The translations under genes and the position numbers were made by a program. From a virus, in IMG/VR virus record IMGVR_UViG_3300042691_007191, positions 1 through 38,570 of that record: a stretch of 38,570 bases of DNA, one strand, 5' to 3'. Under the pieces are notes generated by a model, which saw nothing but the letters and a program-made list of their open reading frames with translations, was not told the origin of the DNA and ran no database searches. Each line of letters opens with the position of its first letter. Position 1 is the first letter of the stretch. Positions 600-23,144 of this stretch are shown in pieces.

Positions 600-2421
600 G
601 ACTTACTACGACAAAGACTATAGCCTCAAGAAACTAACAACCGAGTCTTATATAAGAGACGAACGGTTTGAAGTTATTGGTGTCACAGTTAAAGTAGATG
701 ACTATCCAACCGACTGGTTTAGCGGAACGATGGCAGAAACAAAAAATTGGCTAAGCGCTTTGTCGTGGGATGAGTATTACCTTCTTTGTCATAACACTGC
801 ATTTGACGGGGCTATTTTAAATTGGCACTTTGACATTAAACCAAAGTTTTATTTGGATACCTTATCCATGTCAAGACCAATTACAGGGCAGTCAGTTGGC
901 GGATCTCTGGCCGCACTAGCAAAGCAATACAACATCGGGCAAAAAGGTACAGAGGTTATCACTGCACTTGGTAAAAGACGTAGTGACTTCACCGAGTTAG
1001 AGCTACTACAGTACGGTGACTACTGTAAAAACGATACAGAACTTACATACAAGCTATTTAATATTCTTAAGGCTGAGATCCCCCGCAAGGAACTGTACAT
1101 CATTGACTTGATGGTTCGGATGTTTACTGACCCCGTACTGGAGCTTAATACGGAAACATTAGAGAAACATCTTGTTGCAGTGCAGAAGAAAAAAGACCTA
1201 CTTATGGAACGGATTGACCAATCTATCGGTCGGGATGCCCTCATGTCAAATCCAAAGTTTGCTGAGGTTTTAAAGAAGCTAGGTGTAGAACCGCCTACAA
1301 AGATTAGTCTACGGACAGGAAAGGAATCCTATGCGTTTGGCAAGACGGACTCTGCATTCAAGGCGCTTCTCGATCACAACGATGAGAGAGTTCAAGCAGT
1401 TGTGTCGGCCCGATTGGGAATCAAGAGTACTTTGGAAGAAACTAGAACGGCTTCGTTTATCGGAATATCGAAGAGGGGTGCGCTTCCAATCATGCTCAAT
1501 TACTATGGGGCACACACTGGTCGGGCATCAGGCGGAGACAAGATCAATCTTCAAAATCTCCCACGTGGGGGAGAACTACGAAAAAGTATTAAAGCACCCA
1601 AGGGGCACTTACTTGTGGCATCTGATTCGGCGCAAATCGAAGCTAGGGTGGTTGCGTGGTTGGCGGGAGAAAAAGATCTTGTTGAAGACTTTAAGCAGAA
1701 TGTAGATATCTATTCTAAATTTGCGACGGAGGTATATGGTTACCAAATTCAGAAGGCTTCGCATCCAACGGAGAGGTTCGTGGGTAAGACCTGCATTTTG
1801 GGTCTCGGTTACGGAATGGGTGCGGAAAAGTTTAAAGGCACTCTCAAAATAGGTATGGCGGGTATGTCCGTGGACATCCCATTATCTGAGGCTCAGCGTG
1901 TAGTTAAGTTGTATCGAGGTATGTACCCGTTCATTGAAAAGCTTTGGAAGCAGGGTCAAGAAGCCCTTGAAGCCATGATCGCAGGACATGAGTATGACCT
2001 AGGTGTGGCTATAAAACTTAAGTGCAAAGACAACAAAATTTACTTACCCAACGGTATGTATGTAAGCTACCCAAACTTGCGTAAATCAGGCAATGAGTTC
2101 TTATATGATTCCCGCTACGGCCCAAACAAAATCTACGGCGGTAAAGTTATAGAGAACGTAGTGCAAGCACTGGCTCGTATTGTAGTGTTCGATCAGATGG
2201 CTAAGATTGACCAAAAATTTAGGAAACTTGATACCCCTGCACGGCGACATAAAGTTTGCTTAACTGTCCATGACGAGATCGTAGCGGTTGTACCCAAAGA
2301 TTATGTAGAAGAAGCAGTACATTTTATGGGTAAGATGATGTTACAGACTCCATCGTGGTGTCCTGATTTACCCGTATCGTTCGAAGCTGATTCAGGCGAG
2401 AGTTATGGGGATTGCAAATAA
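571..2421 (+). CDS. polA: Family A DNA polymerase with 3'-5' exonuclease
   Basis: A 616-residue replicative DNA polymerase without the 5' nuclease domain of bacterial Pol I. The N-terminal DEDD proofreading exonuclease shows D8-F-E10, D79 in HNTAFDG, and D155 in the YCKND block. The polymerase domain shows motif A with D352 (DSAQIEAR, a variant of the usual DYSQIELR), motif B K406-x7-Y414-G and motif C H567-D568-E569. The residue equivalent to E. coli Phe762 is Leu410, the 'Leu762' class described in viroplankton polymerases. The ATG at 571 follows CAGGAG. It opens the replication module and is followed by nuclease and helicase genes. Both active sites look intact. Confidence 0.97.
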   Translation: MSRIVTLDFETYYDKDYSLKKLTTESYIRDERFEVIGVTVKVDDYPTDWFSGTMAETKNWLSALSWDEYYLLCHNTAFDGAILNWHFDIKPKFYLDTLSMSRPITGQSVGGSLAALAKQYNIGQKGTEVITALGKRRSDFTELELLQYGDYCKNDTELTYKLFNILKAEIPRKELYIIDLMVRMFTDPVLELNTETLEKHLVAVQKKKDLLMERIDQSIGRDALMSNPKFAEVLKKLGVEPPTKISLRTGKESYAFGKTDSAFKALLDHNDERVQAVVSARLGIKSTLEETRTASFIGISKRGALPIMLNYYGAHTGRASGGDKINLQNLPRGGELRKSIKAPKGHLLVASDSAQIEARVVAWLAGEKDLVEDFKQNVDIYSKFATEVYGYQIQKASHPTERFVGKTCILGLGYGMGAEKFKGTLKIGMAGMSVDIPLSEAQRVVKLYRGMYPFIEKLWKQGQEALEAMIAGHEYDLGVAIKLKCKDNKIYLPNGMYVSYPNLRKSGNEFLYDSRYGPNKIYGGKVIENVVQALARIVVFDQMAKIDQKFRKLDTPARRHKVCLTVHDEIVAVVPKDYVEEAVHFMGKMMLQTPSWCPDLPVSFEADSGESYGDCK

Positions 2422-11872: not shown

Positions 11873-14800
11873 TTATAGCTCCGATGTTTGGCGAACAAAG
11901 CCACGATTAGCCCTGTTAGTTTGTACTCCGCCAACTACACTTCTTTCACGTTTAGTTTGTTCTTGTGGAGCTTTTAATAAAGTTGAGAGAGGCTGTCTTG
12001 TATATCCGTTACGAACCCTGGATTGCTGCAGTTTTTCCCACTCTTGTCTTGCTTCTGCTAGGCTTGCTCCATCTCCGCTTCTATACGCACGTGCATACGC
12101 ACGTTTGATTTCGCTGGCCTTTTCATTATAAAACTGATCGTACTCAAACTTGGCACTTTGTAAAAATTGTTTGTCGGTAAGCTGTTTTGTGGGCAGTCCA
12201 ATACCCACCATAAATGCCTCGGCAAAGCTGATTTCATCAGGAGAGATAAGTACATCGTCTGTACGTGATGTAACCCCTTCAGTAGCGAATCTATAGCCTT
12301 TCATGGCGTTGGCTACACCGGTAGGCATAAGCTGCTCTAAGCCCTTGTAATAGTTACCCTGGCCCATTAGGGAGATACCGTCAGCGGCTTTTAGGGTTAG
12401 ACCACCAAACGGGCCGGTCATTAGGGCATAACCTGCTTCTGCGATACCCCGGCGGCTAAAATCAATATCTGTATATGGCAGGATTGAGAGCATTTGACCC
12501 ATACCAATCTTGCCCGAAACATCCACACCTAAAGCGGCAGGGACACCCTTAACAATAAGATCGGCAAGAGCATCGTCACCAATAGCCCTACGCATAGCCA
12601 ACTCTGGATTGTCAGGCTCATCCTCATCTCCAAATACTAGACCGTACAAGAAGGCTAGAGCCGCAAACCCAGGTAATCCCATTACACCGCCCATAGCTGC
12701 GGTATGTCCGATTGTGAACATCAGGGCGCGGCGACCGATTCTGCGAGTGTCTTCATCTTGACCCGCAAATGCATCATTAAACAACCGAGCCATCAGGCTT
12801 AGCTGGATAAGCTGGAACTTACGGAACTGGGTAGCCAAACGACCTAGACCCTTACGGCTGATACGTGGTGCATTAAATCCACTGTAATCACCATGAGTTC
12901 TGTAAATTACAGTGTCAGCGTAGTTAATAGCGTTGGCTTTATTGTTATTTCTAGACTCAAGACGGTACGCTGCTACTGCAGTAGCTACACGGTTAATTGC
13001 TTCAATGTCTTGTGCCATACCACGGAGGAACTCAGCGGCACGCCCAAACTTGTCAAACTTAGAATCCTCAGTAGATCTCCAGCGGCCTAAGTCCTGCTCC
13101 AGACTAATATCAATACGACCACGATTTACGAGTTCTTCAACAACATCTCTAACGTCTTGTGGTAGCTTGCTATAGCTATCTTCGCCAATACCATGCTTAC
13201 GAATAACGCTAGCAATATCCGAGTACGCACGAGTAAATTCCTTCCATGATCTGTCGTAACCATGCTTAGCACCCACCAGCGGCAACGACATCATGAATGG
13301 CTGGGTCATGTTCTGCAAATAGTAGGATGGGTTTGTTAACAGCATCCAGACAGAAGTCGTATTTAAAGCCTTATCAATAAACGGCGATGGCTCGTAGTCT
13401 AAGCCCATCACATGACGCTTCATAAACTCGTTGTAATACCGGCTACGTTCTGCACGAGTACCTTCTGTGCCTTTTCTAGCCTCTTGCTTCATGTCACGTA
13501 AAGTGTCATAAATGTCTTCAGAGTTCTCAAGCGATGAGATAAAGTGGGCTGTAGCCCGACCCTGTGTAGCAAATGCACGCATCATATCTTTTTCAGCACC
13601 AGCAATCTTACGGCGGCGCTTTTCAGACTGGCGAGCAGACTGCTCAGACAACAGGCTTAAATGAAGATCGGATAGTAAGCGATTAATCGTTCGTTCAGAT
13701 TTGTCAGAAAGGTTGCTGTCTTGGGATTCTTCGACCATATTACGTAGGCGATAGAATAAACCTTGAACGTCGGCTCCTCCAAATAGAGCGCCACGTGACG
13801 AGTCTTTTTCAAATGGCTCAACAAGCGCATAGTTTGTCTCCTCATCCCGAGCGATAGCCTTGGCTTCACCCATGGTTTCAGCAAATTGAACGAAATAATG
13901 ATCTTGGTTTTTCTCCATCTCACGGAGCTTTTTATTAGCCTCAGCCACTTGGTCAGGTGCGGACTTAGGATTATCCCTAATGTTTTCCTGATCTAAGTAA
14001 GCTTGTGAGCGGCCTACAACTACATAGTTACCAAAACGTTTTAATGGAGCATAAGGCCCTTTATTGCCCATACGCATCAAAGTTCTGTATTCAGATAACG
14101 AGTTAGCTTTTTTCTTGGTCAATTCAGCTACTTCGTTGACATCACCAGCTTTCTGCGCTGCAGCAATTAATGCATCGTACTCGGTGTTGATATTGTTAAT
14201 TACGGCATCCTGCATAGCTTTAAGAGTCTTAACTCCATGGTCAAATACCGCACGAATAATATTCTGTGCAGGAGCAGGCATTGCGTCAAATCGTTTCTTT
14301 AACTCTGGGTCTATCTTAGCGCCCTTGATATTAGGATCGTAGCCCCACTCACCCTTCATGGTTGAGTCTTTAATAAATGCGTTTACGCTGTTCTCGCCAA
14401 CACCTTTGACTTCATTTGGCAAAGCGTCATACTGCTGAAGAATTTGGTCAATACGGCGCTCAAGAGAAGTTCTAATTGCTTGCTGGGCTTTAACCAACTG
14501 AACATACTTCTTAGCCGATGGCAAATACTTACCAGCTAGATCAGCCAAATCTTCGGTAAATGCAGCAAACGGCAGACCTTTCTTAGCAAACTCAATAATG
14601 TTATCCGTGATTTCTTGTAATGGGCCACGGATTGGTTTGGGTAACTTGGCTACTTGCTTAGCTGCAGTCTGACGAGCTTGGTTTAAACGAGCCTTAGAAA
14701 ATTGAATTCTCTCAGGTTCAGCACCAACTAACGAAGCCACACGGAAGATGTCTTCATCGTTAAACATAACGATGTTTTTAGTAATATTCTTTAGATTTTC

Positions 14801-17800
14801 TTTTACTTTTTCAATCTGTTCTTTGAGATCTTCAATAGACGCTCTTACATCTTTAGAAAGCTTATCTTTAGTTTCTTGGTCAATATCGGTTCTTGCTTGT
14901 ATTTTGCGTAAAGCATCTTGATTAACTTCAATTTGCTCTTCTAAAAATTTTGTCTCTAAAGGAAGATTCCGAGTTACTTGATCAAGATACTGATTGCCTT
15001 TAATACCTTGCTCATACAAAAACTGAGACACTACTCGTTGAGCTTGTTGCCCAGAGGCTAGTACTTCTTTGTCTTTTACAGCTTTAACTAACCATCGTGG
15101 ATCACCTAAAGCAAGAGCTTTTATACCAAAATAAAGATCATATCCCGTCATTTGGTCTAAAAATATCATTTCATTACCTAGCACGGCTTGAAGTACATTT
15201 TCTGCGTCGCCTTTAAGATTTTCAAGAATATTAAAAATATAAGGCTGATCTTTAATTTTTTTATCAAGATCAAGAAGTTCTTCTGGGCGAGCGTTAATAT
15301 CCACGCGCATTAAATTACCTTCAATGCCTTTTGGAGGTGGCCCAAAATCAGACTCTTTCATTTTAGATGCTGCTGCTATTTTTCTTTTTATAGCATTTAT
15401 TGCAACATCATTTACAGGTTGAACGACTACAGATTGAGTATAGTCATCCCACACTGGTAAATCGTTGCTCATTTGGAGTATTTTCTTTTCATACTCAACG
15501 TATCCATCAATTTGGGCTTGAGTAATTTGAGATTTTGCTCCGTTTACAAAAGATTCATTATCAACTATTGAACGAGCAGCTTGATATTCTGCATATTTTT
15601 CCGGATCAGTTTGCTCTGCATCAAGCATTGCCCTTTGTAACTGGTCACGATTCATGCCTTTGTAAGTGGCAGTTGTAGTTGGAAATCTATTTCTATTTTT
15701 TACATCAGCCTCAAAGTATCCCTTAGCAATACCTGGTCTCTGGGCAAGATAGACACCCCAACCAAAAGCCTGATTGCCTTCGCCAGTACCCATAAAATCG
15801 GTATTAAATCTACGGAAGTCAGCGGCTGTACCGTGCCATGTGCCTGCAATCTCTAAGCGAGCGGCTCCGTAAGCAAGGTTAATAACATCTACCGCAGACA
15901 TTTTGTCTGGATTAAACAAATTCAAACGGCGTAAAGCGGTCTTAAATGCTGCCCACAAACTACGGAACCAACGACCAATAGGTGTTTTTAAATCAATAGC
16001 AGTTGGGTTAACCCCAGCTAAAATAGCTTCTTCAATAAAGTAAGCAATTAATTCTGTATTAGCTTGTTCATCAGATACACCGGCAGCACGCTGTAAGGCT
16101 TTTATCGCAATTATAGATTCACGAGAACCATCATTTTTAGCCGCCCACGAAGTAACTGTATCTACTAAATTATCAAATTGTTTCTCAGTTAGCATCTTCT
16201 GCAGACCCAAATGAGAACCAACTTCGTGCATAAATACTGCCCGACCTGCACCCTCTGGAATGTTATCGGCAATTAAATATGCTTTGTTTCTTAAGATGAA
16301 TCCTTGATCGCCAGCCGTTGGATTTACAATAGCCCGAATATTTAAGGGGATGTCTTTAATGCTTTGATAAATTTCTAAACGACGCTGGTTTTCTGCCCCA
16401 ATAAAATCTTTTAGTTCTTTACGTAATGCTTCAGCGTTAGAACCTTTAGCTCTTTGAGCTCCTTTAGAAAACTGAGGTTTCTCTTCTTTAGCAGCTAATT
16501 GCTGAGCACCACGGCCTTCTGCTTTAGGAGCAGGAGTAGTTACTTCTGTAAATGTAGGCTCAACATATTGAGCAAGAGTATCCTGCGCATCAGGAATTAC
16601 TACAACACCGGCATTATCCATTTCGCCGATGCGTGGCAATACTTTATTAATAAAGAAGTCTGGGCTGGTATTAATACAACCAAAAGAAATCTTTTTGTCT
16701 TTTAAATCTTGAGACAGTAGTTTACCTAGACGGTTTTCTTTTGCATCGCCTACATACACAGAGTGAATGGCTAAGCCGCCTAAATAACCTTGTTTGTCAT
16801 ACATATGCAGTGTATAACCACCATCATATTCTGGGCTATTAACTACACGTAGTGTAAACGTTCCAGCGGGGGTAACTTTGTCAGTGCTTGACATAGCCGT
16901 TAATGGCTTAGTACGTTGTTCGTCAGTTAGACGATCTCCAGCTTGTTGCCCATATAAAGAATCACTGGATGCAATGTGCTTTCCAGAGCCATCAAATAAA
17001 TGGATCTTGCCGTTTGGTTTATCGGCAATAAAGAATGTTTGTTTTGCTTTTACAAAAGCAGGAGCAGATACTTCGTATGCTTTAGCAGCCACAGGGGACA
17101 TCTCTGCCACACCAGGAGCCGGCATTGTAACTGCTCTTGTTTCCTTTACAAAAAGTGGGAAGTCAAAGTCTGTAGTAGTTAGCTGAGCTGGGTTAAATAC
17201 AACTGCAAGAGCCATCATGCCATTGGCAATAGACTTAATAATGCTGCGGATTGCAGCATCTACTGCTTGAGCGCCTTTATTAATGTAAGCGGCTACATCA
17301 TTTTTAATCTTAATTAAGAACTCATTAGACTCACGGCTATTACCGTAGTGCTCTTCTAATGCTGCAAGCTCAGTAGTTTTAAGCTCGTCAATTTGCTCAT
17401 TAAGCTTTTCGTCAGCTTCTGTAATAGCACCCTGGTTATTCTCAAACACAGTTTGCATGTCACGAGGAGTAGTATTGCCGGTCTCAACAGAATCTTTCCA
17501 ATCTTGCTGGGCCTCTTCAGGCAACGCATCATAAACAAATAACCCTAACTTTTCAGCATTAGTATTCCATGCTTGAGCAGCTTCTTCGTCTAGCGTCCTC
17601 GCGCTGACTTCTTCATCGGCTTGTTCAGCTTCTGTGGCAGCTTCATCCCTTTTGGCGTCTTCGCTTGAAACTCTTTTGCTAGTTTCGGCTTGTTTGCGTA
17701 CAGAAACCCTTTTTGTGCTTCGCTTTTGAACGGCATTCTCTTCTCCTTTAGCAATACGAATCTCTTCGCGTCGATTAATTTCCTTAACAATGGCTTCAAT

Positions 17801-20380
17801 TTCTGCAAGCTCAGTAATACGTTCATCAATAGCTAAGTTGTTAAGCTCAAAGTCTTTTAGAGCCTGTAAGCCTTTTTTCTTATACTTCTGATAAGTTCTA
17901 TTTCTGGCTGAAGCATCTTCTAGCTCAGTGGCTCCACTTTCTTGTGGATTAAATACTCTAAACCCAGATGCGCCACCGCCTTCTTTCTCACCAGTTTCTT
18001 CACGACCTAAAGTCTGTTCACCTTCAGTAGCAGCCGTTGCAGCTTCTTCAGCCATCGTGGGGCCAGCCTCATCCGACACAGCTGCTTCACGAGCAGCTAC
18101 AGCTTCAAAGTCTAAATCTTCTTCAGTAAGCGTTTCAGTCTCAGTCGCAGTTTCGCTAGTAGCTACAACCAATAAGTTATAAATATCGTCTTTTGTATAA
18201 CCTAAACGTTTAGCCGCTGCAAAAATACGAGCACCCCAAGTCTTTTGAGCTGCAGGCCCAGCAATCTGAGCAATACGTGCGTCTGATACACCATACTCAT
18301 TAGCAATTTGAACAGAGGTTTTTTCCCCTGTAAGGTATTCCATGACGATGTTGCCATCACGAGTACCAAAAGCAGAATTCACAATAGTGCGAATTTGCTC
18401 GATTGCTTCTGCACGGTCATCAGGTATTACTTGCGCTTCAGTAATTGGGACAGTTATACCCGGAATTGCTCCTACTACTAGCGTTTTTTGCTCTTGCCTA
18501 GCACTGGGAATGGCATTATCGCTCCCACTGGCACTGGGCTCAACCCGTGTTCGTACACTTCCTTGTCCGTCATCTTGGACTGTATCCGGGAGAATAAGGT
18601 TGCTTCCTGTCCCGATGGGTCGAACTTGGTCGGGTCGTACAGGCCCAACGAATTTACCGCTTGTTTCTGCTGCTCTTCCTTGCTCTGATACTGCTCCCAC
18701 CCCGGTAGGGGTCTGCACTCGCAATTGCTTTTGTCCATCTTTTGCTCCTTTAGTTGTAGTTTGAGATGCTAATTCCTGAAGGGCTACAAAAGCTGGTGCA
18801 TCTCTACCAGTTAAAGCCTTATAAAAATTGTTAAGTTCATCAGCTTCTTTTAAAGCTTTTGGGCCTTCTAAAGTACCAATAAGTACATCTGCACGCTCTG
18901 CAGCTTCTGTTTTATCTGCGGAACTATCGATACCCCATTCAGATAAAAACTTAACTGCAGCAGCATTAACTGATTTAGCCGTAGACTTTAACGGAACTTT
19001 GACAGCGCCAGAAGACAATACTGCACCTACAATAGACTTTTGCTCTGGGGTTTTATTTTTATTAAGTGTGTCTAAGTCAGCTAAAAACTTTGTAGCATCA
19101 GCTTGGCTAAATAATGTCTTACCAGCTACGGTGTAACGCCCAGCTACTGAGGTTGGCTGTACACCATAAGTAGAGGCAATAGAATCAAATGCAGCTTGTG
19201 CTTCTGCTTGTTTTTGCTGAGCTTGAGCTTGAGCCTGAGCCGCAGCTATGGCAGCTGTTTGTTGTGCACTTGGTACAGGTGGGCCAACTTGTTCTGGAGG
19301 CTGCGGGCCAACTAATGCTTCTCTTGGGGGTGGCCCTACTAGAATCTCTGAGCTATTTAAGTCAATAGCTTTGTTGATTGCATTTTCATCAGGAGTTCTA
19401 CCTTCGCCGGTTCCTAGGTTTGTAGAGCCTCCTAATAAACTATTTGGGGCTGTAGCACGATTTAAAGTACCAACGACTGCACCTGTTCCACCACCTAATA
19501 ATCCACCAAGAGTAGCTGAACCAACAACACCGGTTAGTGGCTGAATACTTGGGGCTTCTGCACCTGCGGCTAAGTTAGCCGATAGTTTTGTAGCACCTTC
19601 TTCAATAAACTCTGAACCTGCTTCAGCAAGAGTTGTCTTTAGGATGCTCTTTGTACCAGCGGCAAATGCTTTATCAGCACCAACTAAACCAGATGCTGCA
19701 CCAATAACAAAAGGAAGTGGAGTTGCTTTTCTAGCAGCACGAGTGGCAAGTTCCGCACGCTCTTCAATAGGCATGTCCTGTAATTCAGGAGCATCCATAA
19801 CCATTTGATACGCATCACCAGCGGCATCACCACCAGCTAACACAGAGCCAGCAGCACTACCGCCAGCGATACCAGCACGGGCAACACCTTTTTCGGTTAA
19901 ACCGAGGGCGCCACCTATCATCCTTCCGCCTTTGATTGCAAAGCCTGGGCCGACAAAACTACCAACGGCTTGAGATGCAGCTAATAAAGGATTTTCTTTT
20001 ACATAACGTAAAGCACCTGCGGCTTGCTCGCCCAAATCTTCAGACTGCATAGACCGACCAAGCTGAAACTTAGCTTCGGCTGCGCTAAGGGATTGTTTCT
20101 TTTCACCTTCTTCAATAAAGCGACCGATAGCAGCAGATGCTTCTGTGCCTGGCTTTACTATGTCTAATGCAGCTTTTGGCAGGGATGCTACGGCATTTGC
20201 AAACTCAATAGCATAATCATTTGCTGCCCCTAATACACCTCGTTTTTCCGATACGCCTAAATAACCTGCTACTTCCATAGGTGAGAGGCCGGTTAGTTCG
20301 ACCCCTTTATCGATGATCTGGCGATCACTTAGGTCTTTAGCCCATGGTGCTGCTTGGCGAATTTCGTCAAACAAAGACAT
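11873..20380 (-). CDS. Giant polyvalent internal virion / ejection protein
   Basis: A 2835-residue protein, far larger than typical internal virion proteins. In order: an Ala/Gly-rich hydrophobic region (about 135-315); a Gln/Ala-rich stretch (375-400); an HTH segment (about 665-730, IANEYGVSDARIAQI); a helical region (830-885); a YkuD L,D-transpeptidase domain (about 1115-1265, H1206 and C1235 in SFGCIN); a metallopeptidase-like module H1385-E-x3-H with a downstream TELIAYFIEEA helix; an ART-PolyVal ADP-ribosyltransferase-like domain (about 1510-1875, WH1516G, GWGVYLA at 1540) with a coiled-coil insert (about 1803-1865); and an LPD38-like C-terminus (PLKRFGNYVV near 2109, FRKFQLIQL near 2519, hydrophobic helices about 2552-2583). 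It is inferred to be ejected with the DNA, acting on the cell wall and host proteins. ATG follows AAAGGA. Confidence 0.88.
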   Translation of the reverse strand: MSLFDEIRQAAPWAKDLSDRQIIDKGVELTGLSPMEVAGYLGVSEKRGVLGAANDYAIEFANAVASLPKAALDIVKPGTEASAAIGRFIEEGEKKQSLSAAEAKFQLGRSMQSEDLGEQAAGALRYVKENPLLAASQAVGSFVGPGFAIKGGRMIGGALGLTEKGVARAGIAGGSAAGSVLAGGDAAGDAYQMVMDAPELQDMPIEERAELATRAARKATPLPFVIGAASGLVGADKAFAAGTKSILKTTLAEAGSEFIEEGATKLSANLAAGAEAPSIQPLTGVVGSATLGGLLGGGTGAVVGTLNRATAPNSLLGGSTNLGTGEGRTPDENAINKAIDLNSSEILVGPPPREALVGPQPPEQVGPPVPSAQQTAAIAAAQAQAQAQQKQAEAQAAFDSIASTYGVQPTSVAGRYTVAGKTLFSQADATKFLADLDTLNKNKTPEQKSIVGAVLSSGAVKVPLKSTAKSVNAAAVKFLSEWGIDSSADKTEAAERADVLIGTLEGPKALKEADELNNFYKALTGRDAPAFVALQELASQTTTKGAKDGQKQLRVQTPTGVGAVSEQGRAAETSGKFVGPVRPDQVRPIGTGSNLILPDTVQDDGQGSVRTRVEPSASGSDNAIPSARQEQKTLVVGAIPGITVPITEAQVIPDDRAEAIEQIRTIVNSAFGTRDGNIVMEYLTGEKTSVQIANEYGVSDARIAQIAGPAAQKTWGARIFAAAKRLGYTKDDIYNLLVVATSETATETETLTEEDLDFEAVAAREAAVSDEAGPTMAEEAATAATEGEQTLGREETGEKEGGGASGFRVFNPQESGATELEDASARNRTYQKYKKKGLQALKDFELNNLAIDERITELAEIEAIVKEINRREEIRIAKGEENAVQKRSTKRVSVRKQAETSKRVSSEDAKRDEAATEAEQADEEVSARTLDEEAAQAWNTNAEKLGLFVYDALPEEAQQDWKDSVETGNTTPRDMQTVFENNQGAITEADEKLNEQIDELKTTELAALEEHYGNSRESNEFLIKIKNDVAAYINKGAQAVDAAIRSIIKSIANGMMALAVVFNPAQLTTTDFDFPLFVKETRAVTMPAPGVAEMSPVAAKAYEVSAPAFVKAKQTFFIADKPNGKIHLFDGSGKHIASSDSLYGQQAGDRLTDEQRTKPLTAMSSTDKVTPAGTFTLRVVNSPEYDGGYTLHMYDKQGYLGGLAIHSVYVGDAKENRLGKLLSQDLKDKKISFGCINTSPDFFINKVLPRIGEMDNAGVVVIPDAQDTLAQYVEPTFTEVTTPAPKAEGRGAQQLAAKEEKPQFSKGAQRAKGSNAEALRKELKDFIGAENQRRLEIYQSIKDIPLNIRAIVNPTAGDQGFILRNKAYLIADNIPEGAGRAVFMHEVGSHLGLQKMLTEKQFDNLVDTVTSWAAKNDGSRESIIAIKALQRAAGVSDEQANTELIAYFIEEAILAGVNPTAIDLKTPIGRWFRSLWAAFKTALRRLNLFNPDKMSAVDVINLAYGAARLEIAGTWHGTAADFRRFNTDFMGTGEGNQAFGWGVYLAQRPGIAKGYFEADVKNRNRFPTTTATYKGMNRDQLQRAMLDAEQTDPEKYAEYQAARSIVDNESFVNGAKSQITQAQIDGYVEYEKKILQMSNDLPVWDDYTQSVVVQPVNDVAINAIKRKIAAASKMKESDFGPPPKGIEGNLMRVDINARPEELLDLDKKIKDQPYIFNILENLKGDAENVLQAVLGNEMIFLDQMTGYDLYFGIKALALGDPRWLVKAVKDKEVLASGQQAQRVVSQFLYEQGIKGNQYLDQVTRNLPLETKFLEEQIEVNQDALRKIQARTDIDQETKDKLSKDVRASIEDLKEQIEKVKENLKNITKNIVMFNDEDIFRVASLVGAEPERIQFSKARLNQARQTAAKQVAKLPKPIRGPLQEITDNIIEFAKKGLPFAAFTEDLADLAGKYLPSAKKYVQLVKAQQAIRTSLERRIDQILQQYDALPNEVKGVGENSVNAFIKDSTMKGEWGYDPNIKGAKIDPELKKRFDAMPAPAQNIIRAVFDHGVKTLKAMQDAVINNINTEYDALIAAAQKAGDVNEVAELTKKKANSLSEYRTLMRMGNKGPYAPLKRFGNYVVVGRSQAYLDQENIRDNPKSAPDQVAEANKKLREMEKNQDHYFVQFAETMGEAKAIARDEETNYALVEPFEKDSSRGALFGGADVQGLFYRLRNMVEESQDSNLSDKSERTINRLLSDLHLSLLSEQSARQSEKRRRKIAGAEKDMMRAFATQGRATAHFISSLENSEDIYDTLRDMKQEARKGTEGTRAERSRYYNEFMKRHVMGLDYEPSPFIDKALNTTSVWMLLTNPSYYLQNMTQPFMMSLPLVGAKHGYDRSWKEFTRAYSDIASVIRKHGIGEDSYSKLPQDVRDVVEELVNRGRIDISLEQDLGRWRSTEDSKFDKFGRAAEFLRGMAQDIEAINRVATAVAAYRLESRNNNKANAINYADTVIYRTHGDYSGFNAPRISRKGLGRLATQFRKFQLIQLSLMARLFNDAFAGQDEDTRRIGRRALMFTIGHTAAMGGVMGLPGFAALAFLYGLVFGDEDEPDNPELAMRRAIGDDALADLIVKGVPAALGVDVSGKIGMGQMLSILPYTDIDFSRRGIAEAGYALMTGPFGGLTLKAADGISLMGQGNYYKGLEQLMPTGVANAMKGYRFATEGVTSRTDDVLISPDEISFAEAFMVGIGLPTKQLTDKQFLQSAKFEYDQFYNEKASEIKRAYARAYRSGDGASLAEARQEWEKLQQSRVRNGYTRQPLSTLLKAPQEQTKRERSVVGGVQTNRANRGFVRQTSEL
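17590..17736 (-). CDS. Overprinted gene inside the giant ORF: MPFKSEAQ-type small phage protein
   Basis: A 48-residue reading frame lying wholly inside the giant gene, on the same strand but shifted by one base. It starts MPFKSEAQKGFLYANKPKL and continues with AKEFQAKTPKG and a basic end. This layout (MPFKS-x-AQ-x2-FL...P-x-LAKE-x3-TP) is that of a small basic protein usually encoded as its own gene in many phages. ATG at 17736 has a perfect AAAGGAG (17743-17749) exactly six bases upstream. In the giant frame the same DNA (residues about 882-931) encodes a low-complexity linker rich in Lys, Arg, Glu, Ala and Ser. The function is unknown; charge suggests DNA binding. Confidence 0.75.
   Translation of the reverse strand: MPFKSEAQKGFLYANKPKLAKEFQAKTPKGMKLPQKLNKPMKKSARGR
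18478..18738 (-). CDS. Overprinted gene inside the giant ORF: 86-residue protein
   Basis: A second complete reading frame inside the giant gene, in the same shifted frame as the one at 17590-17736. The product starts MDKSNCECRPLPGWEQYQSK, has a varied natural composition (FSRIQSKMTDKEVYEHGL) and ends PVPVGAIMPFPVLGKSKKR. A perfect AAAGGAG (18745-18751) lies exactly six bases before the ATG. In the giant frame this DNA (residues about 548-635) gives a Gly/Ser/Val/Pro-rich linker with no clear fold. No family is recognised with confidence. The unbiased composition and the ribosome-binding site argue that it is expressed. Confidence 0.68.
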   Translation of the reverse strand: MDKSNCECRPLPGWEQYQSKEEQQKQAVNSLGLYDPTKFDPSGQEATLFSRIQSKMTDKEVYEHGLSPVPVGAIMPFPVLGKSKKR

Positions 20381-20394
20381 ATTGTATTAATCCT

Positions 20395-21756
20395 TTAGGG
20401 TGCTACGTAGTTTCCGTCTGTATCATCTCTTACTGCTTTAGGTGGTAATGCTGATTTTACAGCAGGTCTACCACCTGGGGGGTTACCATTAAAGTTTTTA
20501 AAAGCCGAAACTACAGGGTTTTCTGCTCCACCTGGTAAACCACGGGCAGGAATAAAAACACCTGGCTTATTAGGATCTGGTACAAATAACTGACCACCTG
20601 AAGTTACCGATCCATCAGGGTTAACTGTTATACCTTTAGTCTCAGGGGCTTTTAGCACTAAACCAATAGCAAACTTCTTAGCTTCTGCGGCAGTGTATGG
20701 CTTACCTGTCTTAGGATTAGTTTCACCAGATTCAACAAGTAAATCAGCATATTCTTCAGCACGAGCTTTAGCACTATCAGACTTTGTTTTACCACCGCTG
20801 CGAAGATAATCGCCATATGCCTGGTAATACGCTCCTTTATCAACAGCTTCTCTTTCTTTAACTCCAACTTCTCTTTCTTTAAGCCCAATTTGGCGTTCAG
20901 CTTGCATATAGTTAATAACTTTATCTGGAGAACCTAAAAGGCTAACAGACTCAGTCATAAAACGATTCATAGCAGCTTGTGAGAGTTTGTCCATAGCAGT
21001 GTTAATATCACCAACTGTTTCAAGCACATCACCCTTTGGGCCAAGAACTTGAATACGGCTACCTACACCGTTTTTACCTTCTACATATTTTACTTTTAAG
21101 CCTTCTTTAGCAGCGGCATCTGCCAAGCCTTTTAAACCTTGAGATTCACCTACACCACGAATACGAGCTAAAGTATCATTTAATTCATCGCGCTTTTTAA
21201 AGAACTTATCTTCATTCTCATCTTGGCGCATAACTTGTTTTAGTTGAATAGCTTCTAATGTACCTTTACGGCTAATTTGACCAGCAGCTTTTACATAATC
21301 TTCCATGCCTTGAGCTTTTGTGTATTCCTTTGGGCTCATTACAGGAAGAGCTGCTTCAGGCCTTCTTACCCCTTCCGCTGGCGCTTCAAATTCATATTTT
21401 CCAGCTTTTTTGTAAGCAGCGTTTTCACGCATAGCACCAGCAGCAGCTTCAGCAGACGCACGCTCAAACGCTTGATCTTCGGCAGTAGCGCCAGGTAAGG
21501 CACCTTGGTTAGAAAGCATCTGAGCTTGTTGCGTGCCAATATTGCTACCGGTTTTAAGGGCTTGAGTATAGTCATCTGTTTGTCCAACACGGGCTTGAGA
21601 TTGTCTCCAAGCTTGATCTAAAGCTTCTTTTTCGGCAATTTCTTTGCGTAACTGCTCACGCTGCATTGCGCGTAATTGTTCTTCTCCAAGTCGCTCGTAA
21701 GTATTAAGACCCGTAGTTACTGCTGCGCCTAAAGCTGCGCCTAAATTAATAGCCAT
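20395..21756 (-). CDS. Internal virion protein (long helical)
   Basis: A 453-residue, mostly helical, charged protein. The N-terminus starts with an Ala/Gly-rich stretch (INLGAALGAAVTTGLNTYERLG) followed by long Glu/Arg/Gln-rich helices (residues 20-110). There is a mid-region with GLKEREVGVKEREAVDK repeats and a disordered Pro/Gly-rich C-terminus. It lies between the giant ejection protein and a second Ala-rich internal protein, the same place as T7 gp14-gp15-gp16-like ejection proteins, so a virion core or ejection role is inferred from position and composition. ATG follows GGAGGAAAATAAATT. Confidence 0.68.
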   Translation of the reverse strand: MAINLGAALGAAVTTGLNTYERLGEEQLRAMQREQLRKEIAEKEALDQAWRQSQARVGQTDDYTQALKTGSNIGTQQAQMLSNQGALPGATAEDQAFERASAEAAAGAMRENAAYKKAGKYEFEAPAEGVRRPEAALPVMSPKEYTKAQGMEDYVKAAGQISRKGTLEAIQLKQVMRQDENEDKFFKKRDELNDTLARIRGVGESQGLKGLADAAAKEGLKVKYVEGKNGVGSRIQVLGPKGDVLETVGDINTAMDKLSQAAMNRFMTESVSLLGSPDKVINYMQAERQIGLKEREVGVKEREAVDKGAYYQAYGDYLRSGGKTKSDSAKARAEEYADLLVESGETNPKTGKPYTAAEAKKFAIGLVLKAPETKGITVNPDGSVTSGGQLFVPDPNKPGVFIPARGLPGGAENPVVSAFKNFNGNPPGGRPAVKSALPPKAVRDDTDGNYVAP

Positions 21757-21759
21757 AAT

Positions 21760-22725
21760 TTATTTTCCTCCAAGAGCTACAGCAGCTGGGCCACCTAAGG
21801 CATATCTCAAACCGATACCGGCTAAACCGCCAACGGCGCTACCAAAACCGGCAGAACTAGTAGCTTTTGCTTGTTGTTGAGCAGCATATGCGTTAACGTC
21901 AGCATTGTATTTTTGTACACCAATTTGGCCAATTTGATTCCAACCTTGCATAGCACCACCATATGCACTACCCATAGAACTACCCATAGCTCCATAATTA
22001 GCCATAGGTACTTGGCCTGCCTGCAATGCTTGATTACCTGCGCTTAAGGCAAGACCTGTAGATGTTGCTTGGTTACCAAACTGACCTTGCGATAGAGCGA
22101 TAGCGTCCATTTTCTTAGCCCAGCCAAGCTGTTCAGCAGCAGTACGGGCACGGTTAGCGGCAGCAGAACCAACTGCAGCTTCCATAATTGCATTAGCATT
22201 TGCTGTAGATGTAGAACGGCCGGAAGCAGGATTAATACCAAAACTTTCTAAACGACGTTGTTCGTCTGCAGCTTTAATACCAAAAGCTGACTTTACATCA
22301 CCAAGAGCTTCTGCAGCCAAGCGTTCACGGTTAGCAGCAGTGTCGTATTCTTGAGCTGCTTTGTAAACACTTTCCCTCATTGGCCTACCATACTGATCGT
22401 ATTCAACCATGGCTTTTTGTGCAGATTCAATTTGCATGGTTTGCAGTTGTTTATCTAACGCAAATTGCTCATCAGCGCGCATTTCTTGCTTAGCCGCTGC
22501 TTCTTTCATTTGTGGCCAGACTTCGTTCTTCCAAGAATTAAGATACTCTTCAGAAATCTCAGCCATTTTTTGCTGGGCTTTGCCAATATTTGGATCTGGA
22601 GATGGGGCTGAACCGCCGCCGCCTTTGCCGCCGCCCTCTAAAGTCATACCATAGCTAAAAGGCCCACGGCCCCCGCGAGGCGAGAACGCCCGGATGGGCA
22701 GCATATCATCGTATCCAAGTCTCAT
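21760..22725 (-). CDS. Ala/Gln-rich internal virion protein
   Basis: A 321-residue protein. After a Gly/Pro-rich N-terminus (residues 1-45) it has long Ala/Gln/Glu-rich helices (KAQQKMAEISEEYLNSWKNE), an SxGFGSAVGGLAGIGLRYALGG hydrophobic end that could insert in a membrane, and a GMAQ-type low-complexity stretch. This pattern is typical of the small internal core or ejection protein upstream of the larger ones in podoviruses (T7 gp14-like by analogy only). The ATG follows TGGAGATTAGACA and overlaps the end of the GNAT gene by four bases. Confidence 0.68.
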   Translation of the reverse strand: MRLGYDDMLPIRAFSPRGGRGPFSYGMTLEGGGKGGGGSAPSPDPNIGKAQQKMAEISEEYLNSWKNEVWPQMKEAAAKQEMRADEQFALDKQLQTMQIESAQKAMVEYDQYGRPMRESVYKAAQEYDTAANRERLAAEALGDVKSAFGIKAADEQRRLESFGINPASGRSTSTANANAIMEAAVGSAAANRARTAAEQLGWAKKMDAIALSQGQFGNQATSTGLALSAGNQALQAGQVPMANYGAMGSSMGSAYGGAMQGWNQIGQIGVQKYNADVNAYAAQQQAKATSSAGFGSAVGGLAGIGLRYALGGPAAVALGGK

Positions 22726-23144
22726 TGTCTAATCTCCAGCCATCGGCATTCTTCTTTTAACATGCCATATAAAATTAAATTACTTTCATCAGCCGCACCT
22801 TTTCTAATAAGTCCTTCTCGTTTAAACCCAAGATGCTCGTCAAAACGTTGTGCGTCTAAGTTGTCTTCCCGGACTAGTCCGGTAATTCTGTTACATTTAG
22901 CTTGTATAAAAGGGTAAGCAAAACAACGATATAGATAATCTCTAGTCATCCACCGCCTACCTGGTACTGCTGCTACATGCATACAAATTGATGGCCCGGT
23001 GTACCAATTAAATACAACACCTGCAATCAACTCACCATCTTCTTCAAGCCCAATTGAAACAGCATTACCAAAGTCATCCTCATCGATCCTCTGACCGACC
23101 CAAGGTATTACTCTGTTGTCTTGTCCGTAAATGACTGTTTTCAT
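22722..23144 (-). CDS. GNAT-family acetyltransferase-like protein
   Basis: A 140-residue protein with the GNAT layout: β-strands GNAVSIGLEEDGELIAGVVFNWY, a helix after MTRDYLYRCFAYPFIQ (the usual acetyl-CoA pyrophosphate-binding helix region), NRITGLVREDNLDAQRFDEHLGFKREGLIRK (the NxxAxxxyeklGF block) and a final strand. This form is common in podovirus genomes between tail and internal virion genes, where its target is unknown. Its acetylation substrate could be a host or virion protein. The ribosome-binding site before ATG is weak, and the gene is preceded by a 26-base gap. Confidence 0.8.
   Translation of the reverse strand: MKTVIYGQDNRVIPWVGQRIDEDDFGNAVSIGLEEDGELIAGVVFNWYTGPSICMHVAAVPGRRWMTRDYLYRCFAYPFIQAKCNRITGLVREDNLDAQRFDEHLGFKREGLIRKGAADESNLILYGMLKEECRWLEIRQ

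Follow-up and report, generated by a model that had tools for sequence, protein, structure and literature searches.

A small phage gene family very probably nested in the +1 frame of DarB-like giant genes, within a swap-prone linker

Introduction

The stretch of viral DNA analysed here, 38,570 bases in length and referred to as the window, carries on its minus strand a 48-codon open reading frame (ORF) that lies wholly inside a 2835-codon gene for a DarB-like giant protein. Judged from sequence comparisons, this ORF is very probably a genuine, long-conserved gene of the MPF family, nested in frame +1 of the giant gene, started internally and located within a linker prone to swapping. The initial annotation had described the ORF on the same strand as the giant gene and in a shifted frame, with AAAGGAG six bases before the ATG, and all of this is borne out; it had named no strand. 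It had also reported a single nested gene, which stands as nested gene 1, and had overlooked another one farther upstream in the same giant, nested gene 2 (Table 1).

Table 1. Coordinates of the giant gene, its nested genes and neighbours in the window, and of HWK-type nested genes in DarB giants of isolated phages (the HWK list is partial; others exist)
Feature	Sequence	Position	Strand	Remarks
Host gene: giant DarB-like/polyvalent protein, 2835 aa	window	11873..20380	-	phrog_10089 DarB-like match
Nested gene 1 (MPF family, phrog_1375)	window	17590..17736	-	48 codons + stop, giant frame +1
SD AAAGGAG of nested gene 1	window	17743..17749	-	6-nt spacer AAGAGA before ATG
Nested gene 2 (LPGWEQYQSK family)	window	18478..18738	-	86 codons + stop, frame +1, giant residues about 549-635
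SD AAAGGAG of nested gene 2	window	18745..18751	-	6-nt spacer
Further gene	window	20395-21756	-	directly before giant
Virion structural protein	window	21760-22725	-	upstream of giant
Acyltransferase	window	22722-23144	-	upstream of giant
HWK nested gene	L204	2019-2336		inside DarB giant, isolated phage
HWK nested gene	L207	5249-5572		inside DarB giant, isolated phage
HWK nested gene	L212	1501-1815		inside DarB giant, isolated phage
HWK nested gene	L214	1501-1815		inside DarB giant, isolated phage
HWK nested gene	L215	1501-1827		inside DarB giant, isolated phage

The host giant and its nested genes

In a profile search, the C-terminal part of the giant (residues 1855-2809) matches phrog_10089 (DarB-like) with an E-value of 2.2e-55, and its scores against ART-PolyVal (19.7 bits; cut-off 31.2) and LPD39 (19.1 bits; cut-off 27) are sub-threshold. 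The gene is surrounded by late virion genes on the same strand, including those for a virion structural protein (phrog_8003), an internal virion protein (phrog_511) and tail fibres, and the same structural module also contains an endolysin gene. The order of acyltransferase, virion structural protein, further gene and giant resembles that of acetyltransferase, virion-associated proteins and DarB in the Bcep22-like podovirus JC1, whose DarB-like gp69 has been found in virions by MS (PMC9144972). In size, late virion-gene neighbourhood and DarB-like C-terminal part, the window giant likewise conforms to the DarB-like/polyvalent giants of Iyer et al. 2017, members of a class predicted to be injected (PMC5512222); nested genes are unmentioned in the portions of that paper reached by keyword search, whereas the window giant hosts two. 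By analogy with these proteins, and on the grounds of synteny and homologues, the window giant is probably virion-borne. Its residues of about 1150-1290 (minus strand) resemble, by eye, a YkuD-type L,D-transpeptidase with an SFGCIN motif, with no Pfam match at threshold.

Nested gene 1, present as a single copy in the window, encodes a strongly basic product of 48 residues, MPFKSEAQKGFLYANKPKLAKEFQAKTPKGMKLPQKLNKPMKKSARGR, and overlaps giant residues 882-930, where the giant reads NAVQKRSTKRVSVRKQAETSKRVSSEDAKRDEAATEAEQADEEVSARTL. The predicted structure is a two-helix hairpin, with pLDDT 87-95 across residues 1-30 and low confidence for the basic tail. A PDB sequence search and a fold search with the product found no relative, the latter giving one meaningless match, and Pfam and PDB searches for a function gave nothing useful. 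Nested gene 2, about 330 codons upstream, is conserved in frame +1 of nine giants, with 41-92% identity to the window copy, and among the groups tested is restricted to the window's giant group. Within it, 76/42/37 substitutions fall at positions 1/2/3 of the giant codons, a periodicity shifted as in MPF. Its product has no match among PHROGs or phage records, and its structure prediction is of low confidence.

Start signals and selection

The combination of an ORF with an SD does not by itself set nested gene 1 apart: among 126 giants, 13 ORFs that begin with ATG, reach 48 aa or more and have an SD of 6 nt or longer were found outside the recognised patterns, 3-4 of them being divergent family members themselves, and the chance of such a combination is about 5-10% per giant. 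Nested gene 1 is far beyond chance because of its homology and conservation. A viral-contig scan recovered 249 relatives of the small protein, of which 80 were kept, and in about a third of these the MPF gene lies inside a long same-strand open frame of up to 2857 codons. Altogether, 60 distinct nested cores are available, every one of them in giant frame +1, starting with ATG (49) or GTG (11); 55 of the 60 are preceded by an SD of 5 nt or more, as are 2.9% of the 7096 frame +1 ATGs used as controls. A further scan yielded 25 MPF and 9 MPLKKG nested cores in the same frame, partly from the same contigs as the 60.

Purifying selection acts in the nested MPF frame. Across 17 pairs of giants, positions 1/2/3 of the giant codons have 209/123/104 substitutions within the MPF overlap and 6516/4800/12649 outside it, and position 1 exceeds position 3 within the overlap in all 17 pairs, compared with 0 of 5000 random samples. 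The position-3 share is 0.252, against a resampling mean of 0.535 and a minimum of 0.454. In each of the 17 pairs, the overlap substitutions track the wobble position of the small gene, and conservation there is higher in the small protein than in the giant. A sliding periodicity scan of the window's giant group places the strongest reversal at residues 536-645 and 876-935, thereby singling out solely nested genes 1 and 2; in two further groups of giants, only the MPF gene is singled out. The initial annotation would have been undermined by a small protein without stand-alone homologues, by relatives lacking its start or SD while retaining the giant's linker, or by constraint in the giant frame only. 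None of the three was encountered: stand-alone homologues were found, nested relatives retain the start and, as counted above, mostly the SD, and the codon-position test puts the constraint in the small frame.

Distribution among related giants

MPF-bearing giants fall into at least three divergent groups, and only the C-terminal part of the window giant aligns with the other groups, at about 22-26% identity. In the longer giants, the nested MPF gene is found at residues of about 580-1170. In an independent retrieval, giants were fetched by the giant sequence alone and then searched for the small gene. This gave 81 non-redundant giants with 2000 codons or more, 52 with MPF, 5 with MPLKKG and 24 with neither, the MPF-carrying fraction being biased upwards because the query giants were themselves nested-positive; counted among the 24 are L177, whose divergent MPF escaped the model, and two giants with the LPGWEQ gene only, L093 and L101. 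Each tested record with a nested MPF holds one MPF copy only. No other copy was found in the records of two close giants without MPF, L131 and L164 (several records being fragments), and the MPF gene is therefore not strictly essential. Candidate nested ORFs with an SD were also seen in distant giants, at residues of about 732 in L121 (HWK family-like), 673 in L110 and 230 in L104. L007, considered as a split giant, was set aside, no similarity to other giants having been found.

Free-standing members of the family

Residues 3-44 of the window protein match the phrog_1375 profile (E 5.4e-4), as does the L066 copy (E 3e-6), and the N-terminal MPFKSEAQ and a TP-G--LP motif are common to the window protein and the free copies. 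The product matches sequences in phages P-RSP2, C75C1, S-CBS2 and 023Pt_psg01, where they do not lie inside a giant gene, and stand-alone members are present both in IMG/VR contigs and in isolates. The profile match and these free-standing copies uphold the earlier proposal that the product belongs to a small phage family normally encoded as a separate gene. Free copies, where examined, form genes of their own within structural modules, whereas the window copy sits inside a giant gene and is preceded by a strong SD of its own. In L072, the order is TerL-MPF-portal; in L062, TerL adjoins the gene; other free copies lie near portal or tail-sheath genes. An SD is absent in 36 of 52 free copies, and in several of them (e.g., L045, L041 and L050) the end of the preceding gene overlies the MPF start codon, suggesting translational coupling. 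An MPF-like motif also occurs inside longer open frames of 147-268 codons (L016, L056, L076, L080 and L081), and it may also be usable as a fused module. Phage C75C1 was considered as an un-nested state having both a free MPF and a giant, and was rejected: its giant lacks BLAST similarity to the giants described here.

Exchange at the slot

Seven giants hold, in place of MPF, a 58-61-codon ORF (MPLKKGSSNK..., phrog_2423) that likewise encodes a small basic protein at the same slot and in the same frame but is unrelated to MPF in sequence, and the two begin at an identical alignment column. On the giant tree, MPLKKG requires at least 5 changes, all forced by supported branches; because this tree was built quickly and has long branches, reliance is placed on the supported interspersion, such as L167 beside L133-L135 and L136 beside L125, L190 and L123, and not on the deep order. 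Loss can be followed in L124 and L164, giants 93-94% identical, whose identity breaks at the nested start codon and resumes past the nested stop; in L164, AAAGAAG replaces AAAGGAG and there is no nested gene. MPLKKG is also known as a free gene, lying directly after the portal gene in phage DSL-LC04, and in one scan, 79 of 88 distinct copies were un-nested in any long ORF. On these alignments, the linker region is a nested-gene site, filled in related giants by MPF, MPLKKG or nothing. An account in which the polar linker is stop-poor in +1 through a lack of NTN codons was not retained; NTN is only a little less frequent near the slot (0.20 vs 0.25), and stop density there is 0.047, equal to that elsewhere.

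HWK-type nested genes in isolated phages

DarB giants of isolated phages carry another nested family, HWK (MNLNNWV..HWK...), a frame +1 ORF of about 100-130 codons. Its carriers include phages of Klebsiella (LASTA/SopranoGao), Erwinia (PEp14/Stean/Pavtok), Pseudomonas (Itty13), Vibrio (VvAW1), Agrobacterium (Atu_ph08), Ochrobactrum (POI1126) and Microcystis (Mwe-JY07), and the copies of other genera are 49-73% identical to the Klebsiella copy. The periodicity is again shifted, with 190/127/146 substitutions at positions 1/2/3 inside and 1193/1092/2031 outside, and HWK-related sequence forms the C-terminal end of phrog_938 proteins. In the isolate records read, the HWK ORF is not annotated as a separate gene.

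Origin and alternative explanations

A small frame open by accident, its conservation a shadow of the giant's, would draw on the openness of frame +1, in which 391 candidate ORFs occur in the 126 giants, compared with 20 in +2. Accidental ORFs, however, form no comparable family, and the codon-position test and the stand-alone homologues together leave such an origin with virtually no probability; it may be regarded as already refuted. Programmed frameshifting, by which the small frame would be the C-terminal tail of a shortened giant without an independent start, could draw on Sinorhizobium phage PBC5, where the HWK family is in frame with an N-terminal giant part. Yet MPF copies keep ATG or GTG at the residue where the free genes also start, together with a strong SD, and several DarB giants have a small-frame stop 2-5 codons before the ATG, making frameshifting very unlikely. 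Internal SDs are able to slow ribosomes, and the SD and ORF could accordingly have pausing or regulation of the giant's translation as their main task, with the peptide as a by-product. This is highly improbable, since it is the peptide sequence that is conserved and has homologues among free genes, and since the slot also takes another protein family with its own start.

The initial annotation had proposed that the giant took up a free-standing gene, which was afterwards read through in a second frame. A recent absorption into the giant's linker would suit a family common as a separate gene and a variable slot at which nested genes are gained, lost and swapped, but the reading frames speak against it: the frame used by the giants is stop-free in only 1 of 52 free copies, with a mean of 2.65 stops, and the nested copies are confined to it, whereas the alternative frame is open in 48% of free copies and used by 0 of 60 nested ones. 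Codon choice differs as well. At Ser5, nested copies have AGC, TCG or TCA and never AGT or TCT, either of which would create TGA in the giant frame, whereas AGT or TCT occurs in 28 of 52 free copies. Moreover, the nesting is common to giants that are under about 26% identical over part of their length only. Recent absorption is thus unlikely. Given the stops in free copies, the nesting common to very divergent giants and the giant-suited codons, frame-compatible exchange between giants fits better than repeated absorption of free genes. The uniform frame was discounted as proof of a single origin, being weak evidence because frame +1 is intrinsically more open. The origin of the nesting is old.

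According to the favoured reading of MPF as a nested gene with an internal start, some ribosomes would initiate at its own AAAGGAG...ATG within the giant mRNA, while others would read the same bases through as the giant's polar linker, so that MPF and giant would be expressed simultaneously and late. Since free MPF copies adjoin TerL, portal or tail-sheath genes, the small protein is perhaps a late virion-assembly or packaging factor made with the giant, for which the chance seems somewhat short of even. A broader proposal, more doubtful and offered tentatively, is that DarB-like giants have a dedicated nested-gene site at which MPF, MPLKKG and, in other lineages, HWK would be exchanged as frame-compatible cassettes, with products that would aid the giant in packaging or ejection and whose synthesis would be tied to its mRNA.

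Significance

Nested genes in phages are already known. Embedded Rz1-type spanin genes, for instance in phage JC1 (PMC9144972), are also complete genes inside another phage gene in a different frame, but Rz/Rz1 constitute one functional pair, whereas unrelated small families alternate in the giant-gene slot. A literature search found no report of a giant-gene site hosting several unrelated small genes in alternation and nothing relevant on motifs or nested genes in such giants, within a coverage that mostly excludes subscription journals.

The sequences show coding, conservation, start signals and swapping, and the nesting itself is repeated in dozens of phages that are only distantly related. 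At the nested site, most of the isolate records examined annotate nothing but the giant, and annotation of such giants thus systematically overlooks a class of small phage genes. The motif DAVQERS..., which looks conserved in the giant, is a side effect of the nested gene and serves as a warning for domain annotation. Natural swaps and losses provide test material for the role of common small families, and the nested site offers a clean system for the mutual accommodation of two coding frames.
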